From Hymenobacter cellulosilyticus (GTDB lineage: Bacteria > Bacteroidota > Bacteroidia > Cytophagales > Hymenobacteraceae), in the NCBI RefSeq assembly GCF_022919215.1, contig NZ_CP095046.1:3276501-3340500 (forward strand): 64,000 nucleotides of DNA. Direction: 5' to 3'. Positions 5,821 through 43,629 of the stretch are shown here, in pieces (the stretch's first letter is position 1; each line of letters starts with the position of its first letter). Made by a program: the position numbers and the translations under genes. Below the pieces are notes generated by a model. The model was not told the origin of the DNA and did not search any database. It was given only the letters and a program-made list of their open reading frames with translations.

Positions 5821-6594
5821 CTACTCAAAGCGCATGTGCTTTACCGATTCGCCCGAATTCTGCAGCTCAATCAGCGAGTCAATGCCGATTTGCAGGTGGG
5901 AGGTTACGTAGTCGGAGGTTACCTTTTTGTCACTTTCCGAAGTTTTCACGCCCTCAGGCGTCATTGGGTTGTCGCTCACCAGCAGCAGGGCGCCGTGGGG
6001 AATTTCGTTGACAAAGCCCACGGTGAAGATGGTGGCCGTTTCCATGTCCACGGCCATGGCCCGGATCTGGCGCAGGTAGTCCTTGAAATTCTCGTCGTGC
6101 TCCCACACGCGGCGGTTGGTGGTGTACACCGTACCGGTCCAGTAGTCCTTCTCGTGCTTCTTGATCATGCTGCTCACGGCCCGCTGCAGGCGGAAGGAGG
6201 GTAGGGCCGGAATCTCGGCCGGCAGGTAGTCATCCGAAGTACCTTCCCCGCGAATAGCGGCGATGGGCAGGATGAGGTCACCGAGCTTGGTCTTGTTTTT
6301 CAAACCGCCGCATTTGCCCAGAAACAGCGCCGCCTTGGGCTTGATGGCACCCAGCAAATCCATCACCGTAGCGGCCATGGGGGAGCCCATGCCGAAGTTG
6401 ATGATGGTAATGTTGTTGGCCGTAGCCGTTTGCATGGGTTTGTCGATACCCCGGATTTCGACGCCGAACTGCTCGGCGAACATGGTGACGTAGTTAATGA
6501 AGTTGGTCAGCAGGATGTACTGGCCAAACTCGTTCAGGGGCACGCCAGTGTAGCGGGGCAGCCAGTTCTCGACAATGTCGGCTTTGGTTTTCAT
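5821..6594 (-). CDS. amn: AMP nucleosidase, short form
   Basis: A 257-residue protein of the nucleoside phosphorylase superfamily. It hydrolyses AMP to adenine and ribose 5-phosphate in the cytosol. Supporting pieces: INFGMGSPMAATVMDLLGAI (phosphate/ribose-binding glycine turn), FLGKCGGLKNKTKLGDLILP, and RAMAVDMETATIFTVGF, the MET motif that contacts the ribose. Bacteroidota carry this short form, lacking the large N-terminal domain of the E. coli enzyme (about 480 residues), so the length is normal here. The start at 6594 follows directly after a palindromic repeat region (6597-6690) that separates it from the divergent gene at 6781. Confidence 0.88.
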   Translation of the reverse strand: MKTKADIVENWLPRYTGVPLNEFGQYILLTNFINYVTMFAEQFGVEIRGIDKPMQTATANNITIINFGMGSPMAATVMDLLGAIKPKAALFLGKCGGLKNKTKLGDLILPIAAIRGEGTSDDYLPAEIPALPSFRLQRAVSSMIKKHEKDYWTGTVYTTNRRVWEHDENFKDYLRQIRAMAVDMETATIFTVGFVNEIPHGALLLVSDNPMTPEGVKTSESDKKVTSDYVTSHLQIGIDSLIELQNSGESVKHMRFE

Positions 6595-6596
6595 AC

Positions 6597-6690
6597 GGTG
6601 AAATAGTAAAGTGGGAGAGAGGGTGAGTTGTCGTTTGGAATGCGTGGATGGAATAGGAAACTCACAATTTCGCTATTTCACCACCTCACC
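6597..6690. repeat. Imperfect palindrome with GGTGA-rich arms, related to the rnpB insert
   Basis: Left arm 6597-6629 and right arm 6659-6690 are imperfect inverted repeats built of GGTGA/GTGAAAT/GTGAGTT units. The reverse complement of the right arm matches 28 of 32 bases of the arm at 19088-19119 inside the RNase P RNA gene, counted by eye. It fills the space between amn and the divergent gene. Confidence 0.7.
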
Positions 6691-18559: not shown

Positions 18560-18740
18560 TCGGCGTTAGAAAGTGCAGTTGCCGCAAATCAGTTGGAACA
18601 ACTTTCCCTGGAAAGTGCCCTGCCACAAATGCGTTTGCCCTACTTCGCCGGGAAGTTGCTCGTACGCAAATAGGTAGGAGCAACTTCCCGGCGGGAGTGT
18701 ATCACCACGCTTGGGGAGGGCCAACTTCCACCAGTTGGCG
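18560..18740. repeat. Tandem degenerate hairpins in the gap between regulator and rnpB
   Basis: This roughly 370-bp gap (18428-18795) has no credible gene. It holds a perfect 15-bp stem (GCCGGGAAGTTGCTC at 18647-18661 with 18678-18692), a related degenerate copy just upstream (about 18565-18620, with AGTTGC, CGCAAAT and CAACTTTCC), and a 6-bp hairpin GCCAAC/GTTGGC at 18720-18739. The two larger units share AGTTGC-CGCAAAT-CAACTT in the same order. Confidence 0.6.
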
Positions 18741-18837: not shown

Positions 18838-19330
18838 GCCGGTGATGAGTCTGTAAGCCGGGTTTTGTCCGCCCCTGCAAGCAGAAGCGGCCCCACCATT
18901 TATCTAGGCCAGTCCTCGCGGAAAGGCTCCATCAACCTACCCGCTGGCGCCGGACGAGCCGCCCGGTGCAGGCCCCGAAAGGCTTGCGTACCAGCTTATT
19001 TGGTCTTTCAACCCCTGAGGTTTACCCAGCCGGCATGGTTGCCCAGCCGCTGGTGCGCTCTTACCGCACCTTTTCACCCTTACCAAAGGTGAGATGGTGA
19101 AATTGTGAAATGGTGAGTTTGAGGTTCTGCTTGCGCAGTTTGAACAATAACTCACTAGTTCACCAACTCACCACTTCACCGCTTGGCGGTAATTTTCTGT
19201 GGCACTGGCTGTCCTGGTTCACTTTACGCTTGCCAGTCCTTCCCGTTAGGAAGCAGGGTGCTCTGCGTTGCCCGGACTTTCCTCGTCGCCGGAGTTGCCT
19301 CCCTTGCCGCGGTGGGGCGACCCATCACTG
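18838..19330 (-). ncRNA. rnpB: RNase P RNA (type A) with a greatly enlarged P12
   Basis: This is the catalytic RNA that matures tRNA 5' ends. Read on the minus strand it has the universal 5' core GAGGAAAGTCCGGGCAACGC, then GCCACAGAAAATTACCGCC, GGTAAGGGTGAAAAGGTGCG, GTAAGAGCGCACC, GGCCTAGATAAATGG and the 3' core ACCCGGCTTACAGAC. The ends pair as P1 (GTGATGGG with CTCATCAC). Ends are estimated: 5' from the promoter at 19335, 3' from P1 and the terminator. At about 493 nt it is longer than the usual 350-400, because about 93 nt of palindrome (19088-19180) replaces the P12 hairpin. Core elements on both sides are intact, so the RNA should work. Confidence 0.93.
19088..19180. repeat. Palindromic insert inside the P12 region of rnpB
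   Basis: Arms 19088-19119 and 19149-19180 (32 nt each) are imperfect inverted repeats made of GGTGA/GTGAAAT/GTGAGTT units, with a loop that contains its own small hairpin (CTGCTTGCGCAG). One arm matches 28 of 32 bases of the intergenic palindrome arm at 6659-6690. Confidence 0.75.
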
Positions 19331-26260: not shown

Positions 26261-26370
26261 TCGTCTGTCATCCTGAGCCTATTGAAGGACCTTATGGGAT
26301 ACGAACGACAAGCGTAATAACGACTCGTGCCAGCGTGATAAGGTCCTTCGCTAAGCTCAGGATGACAGAC
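26261..26370. repeat. Palindromic repeat element, copy 1
   Basis: About 105 bp. Ends CTGTCATCCTGAGC and GCTCAGGATGACAG are exact reverse complements; inside them are GAAGGACCTTAT and ATAAGGTCCTTCGC. The centre has ACGACTCGT, shared with copy 2. It lies between the phosphoesterase start and the alpha/beta hydrolase stop. Confidence 0.85.
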
Positions 26371-43537: not shown

Positions 43538-43629
43538 GTCATGTCGAACACAGTGAGATATCTCGCTCGCTTCGTTGAGTTAGTAATCAAACGTCAGCAC
43601 GCGAGATGTCTCACTGCGTTCGACATGAC
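43538..43629. repeat. Palindrome between trpE and trpG
   Basis: Outer arms GTCATGTCGAAC / GTTCGACATGAC and inner arms CAGTGAGATATCTCGC / GCGAGATGTCTCACTG form a long imperfect hairpin of about 92 nt in the transcript. It is a different family from the tgtcatcctgagc elements. Confidence 0.8.

Follow-up and report, generated by a model that had tools for sequence, protein, structure and literature searches.

A long palindrome in the P12 helix of a Hymenobacter RNase P RNA and its relatives in intergenic DNA

The RNase P RNA gene (rnpB) of Hymenobacter cellulosilyticus raises the question of how an essential ribozyme came to carry a long palindrome in one of its helices, and whether this palindrome belongs to a spreading repeat. 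The gene lies in a stretch of 64,000 nucleotides, the whole of which was analysed and is called the window below. As predicted from the sequence, rnpB is complete on the minus strand: cmscan aligned all 367 positions (1-367) of the RNaseP_bact_a model (RF00010) with a score of 239.7 bits against a gathering score of 100, a full-length covariance match that places the RNA in class A. In this alignment the extra sequence of the gene forms one large insertion in P12, which is a terminal stem of the specificity domain and sometimes dispensable in cyanobacteria (available sections of PMC2858038, the latter citing Vioque 1997, Nucleic Acids Res 25:3471). The position of the distal P12 stem and loop, between the conserved ACCGCC and GGTAAGGGTGAAA, is taken by an imperfect hairpin of 100 nt, which in the predicted fold extends the P12 stem from its GCC/GGT base. 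Within it, the 93-nt palindrome with 32-nt arms that had been proposed at 19088-19180 was recovered (Table 1). Folding of the RNA from 19080 to 19190 gave -45.9 kcal/mol (z -6.48), a value as good as this being reached by none of 200 dinucleotide shuffles, and Tandem Repeats Finder reported periods of 8 and 16 in the arms.

Table 1. Features of the rnpB locus, the related intergenic site and rnpB-adjacent Y1_Tnp genes (window positions, except in the last row)
Feature	Position	Strand	Remark
rnpB, class A RNase P RNA	18838..19328	minus	RF00010 full-length model match, 239.7 bits
Long form of P12 (100-nt palindrome flanked by ACCGCC and GGTAAGG)	19085..19184	minus	folds onto GCC/GGT base of P12, 3/3 closing pairs
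5' arm in RNA, four 8-nt units of GGTGARNT type	19149..19180	minus	
3' arm in RNA	19088..19119	minus	25/32 complementary to 5' arm
Loop region with inner hairpin around GCGCAAGC	19120..19148	minus	similar inner parts in dispersed copies
Intergenic relative, same 8-nt-unit palindrome as P12	6597..6690	plus	immediately precedes the start codon of the minus-strand gene at 5821-6594
Phosphorylase-superfamily (PNP) gene, PF01048	5821..6594	minus	used to locate the control intergenic site in relatives
Y1_Tnp near rnpB	G016:C35:29996-30340; G088:C71:75019-75363; G019:C18:51585-51929; G045:C1:1282472-1282816		also at L054 and L058

Relatives of the palindrome were found at many other places in the host genome. 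A BLAST search with the 93-nt stretch against the 6.09 Mb genome, in which 40 of 110 candidate places were scored, gave at least 56 match rows at E ≤ 0.001. These correspond to at least 41 distinct places, P12 being one of them and the others numbering 40; match rows outnumber places because the palindrome often matches on both strands. Among the dispersed places that were read, 18 were full-length and 9 were partly matched. The full-length copies, units of roughly 85-110 nt, run from tandem 8-nt units through a usually GTTC...GAAC-like inner part of variable length and then through the units back. One relative lies within the window, upstream of the PNP gene, whose protein has its nearest named records in Hymenobacter species (the best three being 100% identical). 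The match of 28 of 32 bases that had been counted by eye between an arm of the P12 palindrome and this intergenic palindrome is exact (reverse complement of 19088-19119 versus 6659-6690).

To see P12 in a wider context, rnpB was collected from 101 same-genus genomes. All of them yielded the gene (99 with a score over the cut-off), and the P12 of 100 was read, the exception being G058, which gave a fragment match only. P12 length was bimodal among these 100 loci: 49 had 6-26 nt and 51 had 64-104 nt, and lengths of 27-63 nt did not occur among them. The short forms comprise two types: (i) a CGCAAG-like tip of 6-10 nt (12 loci) and (ii) a TACG-like tip of 20-26 nt (37 loci). The long forms were, by eye, members of many unrelated families, including those with GGTGAAAT, GAGTTAA, AGCTGTT, TTTAACA, GGGTAGGA, and GGGTCTTGG units. 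Of 63 loci from other genera of the family, 30 were long, a figure that is no frequency because the second batch of 35 loci had been selected mainly by length. Among the 30 top-scoring loci in a search of the order, 29 were readable and two were long, both from one other family. An extension shared by all relatives and without other genomic copies, which the original prediction had set down as the mark of ordinary helix growth, was thus not what we observed: 49 of the 100 same-genus loci have no extension, and the host genome holds the palindrome's relatives at 40 other places.

The long inserts of the genus and family set (86 in total), which were used for the fold, period, and stop tests, have a common architecture. 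Fold z was below -3 in 85 of them (50 single-base shuffles each), and all three closing P12 pairs were kept in the minimum-energy fold of 84. The best arm period was 7 or 8 nt in 80 inserts (7 in 41 and 8 in 39, compared with 10 and 8 for shuffled sequences). The ACCGCC that precedes the insert did not vary among the 168 loci read. All six frames contained stops in 56 of the 86 inserts versus a fraction of 0.34 of shuffled sequences, a moderate effect; such stops would hinder life inside genes. A short-form tip at the start of the insert, or TACGT inside it, was found in none of the 86, and the native short tip seems to have been replaced, not kept, in the long forms.

The string CGCAAG occurred in the inner hairpin of nine long inserts (L001, L069, L092, L095, L107, L111, L118, L213, and L214), where it is not clearly the old tip because a dispersed copy (L006) has a similar string. 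These nine P12 elements come from scattered species and have a compact inner hairpin, while most full dispersed host copies have longer loops. The compact hairpin may represent a P12-resident sublineage or a trace of the CGCAAG short tip of another clade.

Arms made of tandem 7- or 8-nt units are also what growth of the helix in place would produce, with slippage multiplying the units and template switching at the hairpin copying them to the other arm. The likeness to intergenic repeats would then reflect a shared mechanism and not a shared origin. Consistent with this, the inserts of a few near pairs agree at the outer foot but not further in: foot identity was at least 0.56 in 5 of 18 near pairs with unrelated inner parts, e.g. 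L080/L083 and L110/L111. However, near pairs overall shared the foot no more than far pairs did (0.39 versus 0.37, p 0.39), and rewriting in place with a conserved foot was rejected as a general process, being seen in single cases only. Growth in place is further at odds with the lack of 27-63 nt forms among the 100 genus loci, although a single P12 of 49 nt was found in another genus (L182), and with the inner GTTC...GAAC part that the dispersed copies of the host share besides the units. We regard it as quite improbable.

If the inserts derive from dispersed palindromes, the repeats of a genome should be reflected in its P12. Six P12 inserts were used as queries over 31 genomes, with up to 29 candidate places scored per genome and an E cut-off of 1e-5 in one search and 1e-7 in the others. 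The counts are match rows and not copies, as the palindrome often gives two, and among the matches listed the removal of P12 rows may be incomplete. Each of the six inserts had at least one dispersed match in its own genome. With the listed P12 rows removed, the own genome ranked 2, 3, 2, 1, 2, and 1 of 31 in match rows when ties were resolved favourably; for G073 the rank depends on one match row, and for G093 on a tie. With ties averaged, the mean normalised rank of the own genome was 0.965, which was reached by none of 20,000 random assignments. Match rows elsewhere were present in 8 of the 10 other genomes with the same P12 family versus 32 of the 110 remaining ones (Mann-Whitney p 2.6e-4), two of the ten same-family genomes having no match outside P12. 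The GGGTAGG family gave only 0-2 match rows in any genome among the matches listed. A graded test of insert similarity against match rows, with self excluded, showed a weak relation (mean Spearman 0.107, a value reached by 213 of 2000 permutations), and the same repeat family is often present in genomes that have a different family or a short tip in P12 (e.g. G008).

P12 turns over faster than the rnpB core. In 28 same-genus pairs with a core identity of at least 97%, agreement in long or short state was 0.50, no better than in distant pairs; the pairs used for turnover include five genus loci that were fetched for looking long (L213-L217). Two loci with 98.75% identical cores (L052 and L058) carry unrelated P12 palindromes (SW z 0.6), and in another pair with cores of the same identity (L125 and L216, the latter one of the five fetched loci) one P12 is long and the other short. 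This variability bears on the possibility that the extension is kept for a function such as stabilising the RNA, docking a protein, or regulating RNase P. The retention of the closing pairs in 84 of 86 inserts and the presence of the extension in about half of the same-genus species would agree with a function, yet the other 49 of 100 species do without it, and its sequence, length, and even presence vary between near-identical cores. Moreover, a palindrome inserted whole would look alike without selection. We consider maintenance by function very unlikely.

On the rnpB core tree, long or short state required 31 changes compared with a shuffled mean of 33.4 (120 of 500 shuffles were as low). 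This number is not an event count, because the core tree is weak (24 of 96 inner branches starred) and recombination would inflate counts; starred branches alone force at least 15 changes. States scattered like shuffled labels could also arise if whole rnpB alleles or long stretches were exchanged by homologous recombination, long and short forms being old alleles that move sideways. The J11/12 link, i.e. the 2-3 nt between CCACAGAAA and ACCGCC (AT, ATA, ATT, ACT, or AGT in L030-L127), adds to this. Among pairs with a core identity of at least 96%, which are not independent of each other, the link differed in 20 of 26 different-state pairs but in 5 of 34 pairs of the same state; an exchanged tract that reaches beyond P12 could give this pattern. 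A link that varies with state at 6-7 positions upstream of the insert speaks against a clean insertion and points to compensation or to a longer exchanged tract. On the other hand, 11 different-state pairs showed no core difference within 20 nt of the junction except in the link, although the high conservation of these flanks makes this a weak test. Exchange of alleles is also difficult to reconcile with the association between P12 families and the dispersed repeats of their own hosts, and with the unrelated inserts in the 98.75% identical cores of L052 and L058. We regard it as an unlikely explanation.

What we consider probable is that P12 is a tolerant slot in which the short tip was repeatedly swapped for the dispersed palindromes of the same genome. 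In the RNase P RNA of Hymenobacter, this slot would be the distal half of P12, and the palindromes replacing the native tip would come from repeats dispersed in intergenic DNA, mostly hairpins of 65-105 nt with a 7- or 8-nt unit repeated in tandem along each arm. The donor would presumably be one of these dispersed palindromes, copied as DNA. Since the whole palindrome would enter, it would add to P12 a stacked, independently folding rod of about 20-40 bp, with the remaining RNA still recognisable, and the swap may be nearly neutral for ribozyme function. The original prediction of a spreading repeat in a tolerant part of the ribozyme agrees with the dispersed relatives in the host and with the lineage-variable presence, but the single entry that it implied gives way to recurrent occupation by unrelated families.

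Two other sites served as controls. No P12-like insertion was found in tmRNA, for which 98 over-cut-off matches in 101 genomes were all 369-375 nt long; intolerance elsewhere might explain why RNase P RNA, and not tmRNA, carries an insert. The intergenic site upstream of the PNP gene, in contrast, showed the same kind of palindrome replacement as P12. This site was chosen for being occupied in the window, and 38 of 80 loci were used (the window and 37 relatives, with L276 dropped). Many of these regions had no strong hairpin and others were filled by palindromes of different families. Fold z was below -2.5 in 15 of the 38 regions; by eye, those of L257, L265, and L272 are not of the 7/8-nt kind. 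The cutting of regions failed in at least one case, L245, which appeared occupied by eye but had a z of 0.3, and the window's own eroded copy reached a z of -1.2 only. Special targeting of P12 is not supported, as the PNP upstream site is often occupied too. Because this site behaves like P12, the process looks general for tolerant non-coding sites; the P12 case is remarkable because the site lies inside an essential ribozyme.

The machinery behind such swaps was sought in the neighbourhood of rnpB and at the ends of the dispersed copies. In several genomes with a long P12, a Y1_Tnp (IS200/RAYT-like) gene that shares its strand with rnpB is located 0.2-3 kb upstream (Table 1), which would fit palindromes that are classical REPs moved by RAYT, with this gene as the engine in some species. 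However, no match to the Y1 transposase (PF01797) was detected in the host genome (G000, assembly 95.48% complete), nor in two further genomes among the 11 searched. Among loci with at least 2.5 kb of sequence upstream, and counting fragments, a Y1 match near rnpB was present at 3 of the 40 with a long P12 and 2 of the 28 with a short one, where the assignment to P12 state may confuse loci with identical P12 strings. A RAYT adjacent to rnpB was rejected as the driver, being equally rare with long and short P12, and the gene looks like an old neighbour that was lost in most genomes. REP tags near a foot were rare as well, with GTAG in 2 of 16 copies and CGTC in none. Movement as classical REPs appears extremely unlikely.

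Target site duplications were sought in the full-length copies other than L011 and L021 (16 of 18), the same set as for the tags, with ends uncertain by a few nt. Matches of at least 4 nt flanked a fraction of 0.125 of these copies, compared with 0.1375 for mismatched flanks. A DDE-type MITE, for which target site duplications would be expected, does not fit this result. We infer that the repeat may move as a mobile element, neither a transposase nor a target duplication having been found for it.

The nearest precedent would seem to be the STRR (short tandemly repeated repetitive) sequences, which reportedly occur in the RNase P RNA of heterocyst-forming cyanobacteria. They are said to be heptamers that lengthen P12, to be unrelated between close strains, and to be dispensable for activity in vitro. 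The inserts described here share with them the short tandem units inside the P12 segment (period 7 or 8 in 80 of 86) and, as these features are described, unrelated inserts in close species (L052/L058); for dispensability, the 49 of 100 same-genus species that lack the extension are an indirect indication. They differ in belonging to another phylum, in having both 7- and 8-nt units, and in occupying 51 of 100 same-genus species. In the present case the units form complete palindromes, which are also dispersed as such in intergenic DNA. New with respect to STRR would be the second phylum, the palindromic form, the tie to dispersed palindromes, and the very high turnover.

Other repeats show partial likeness. 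Rickettsia palindromic elements (RPE) are short palindromes that insert into functional genes, where they are tolerated, and are known for in-frame insertions in proteins; in contrast, 56 of the 86 P12 inserts have stops in every one of the six frames. The RPE of R. conorii is mentioned in the available part of PMC3733652. According to the same part of that paper, REP elements associated with RAYT transposases are likewise short dispersed palindromes in many copies, but measure 20-40 bp, compared with 65-105 nt and arms of 7/8-nt units here. The present repeats further lack a regular GTAG or CGTC tag and a Y1 match in the host genome. TAACTGA heptamer direct repeats have been described from Beggiatoaceae, cyanobacteria, and five Bacteroidetes (PMC4679880, available sections). 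They resemble the present repeats as intergenic 7-nt tandem units of sporadic occurrence, often located just upstream of a start codon, but are described in those sections as direct arrays of one fixed unit, unlike the P12 palindromes. The term RNase P is absent from that paper. No report of such P12 repeats in Hymenobacter or Bacteroidetes was found in the open literature, a scope outside which most subscription papers fall, and repeats in P12 are not treated in the available sections of PMC8172020, PMC4748335, PMC7191817, PMC4264200, and PMC2662882.

Fast-turning, selfish-looking repeats in an essential ribozyme, present in half of the sampled species of the genus, amount to a natural mutational scan of P12. 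Conversely, P12 provides a single-copy, alignable site for measuring the turnover of intergenic palindromes, which is otherwise hard to trace, and it can point to the repeat family that a genome carries. Near-identical species can hold unrelated hairpins in rnpB, and both the length of the gene and the sequence of its P12 serve poorly as phylogenetic markers in this family. Should the parallel with cyanobacteria prove correct, P12 would have been colonised in two phyla independently of each other. A wider and rather doubtful proposal, which we put forward tentatively, is that P12 acts as a convergent docking slot for species-specific palindromes of 7/8-nt units in at least two phyla. The palindromes would be exchanged hairpin for hairpin at the DNA level without a dedicated transposase, and the slots (P12 and fixed intergenic sites, e.g. 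upstream of the PNP gene) would persist while the families carried by a genome overwrite the palindrome in them.

The window contains further inverted repeats. About 150 nt downstream of rnpB, at 18646-18693, lies a 20-nt inverted repeat with an 8-nt spacer and 95% complementarity. Two long inverted repeats of GTCATCCTGAGC / GTCATGTCGAAC type, with arms of 33-34 nt, are located at 26263-26370 and 43538-43629. They differ in kind from the P12 palindromes, and similar, larger ones occur at the phosphorylase site of L265 and L272.
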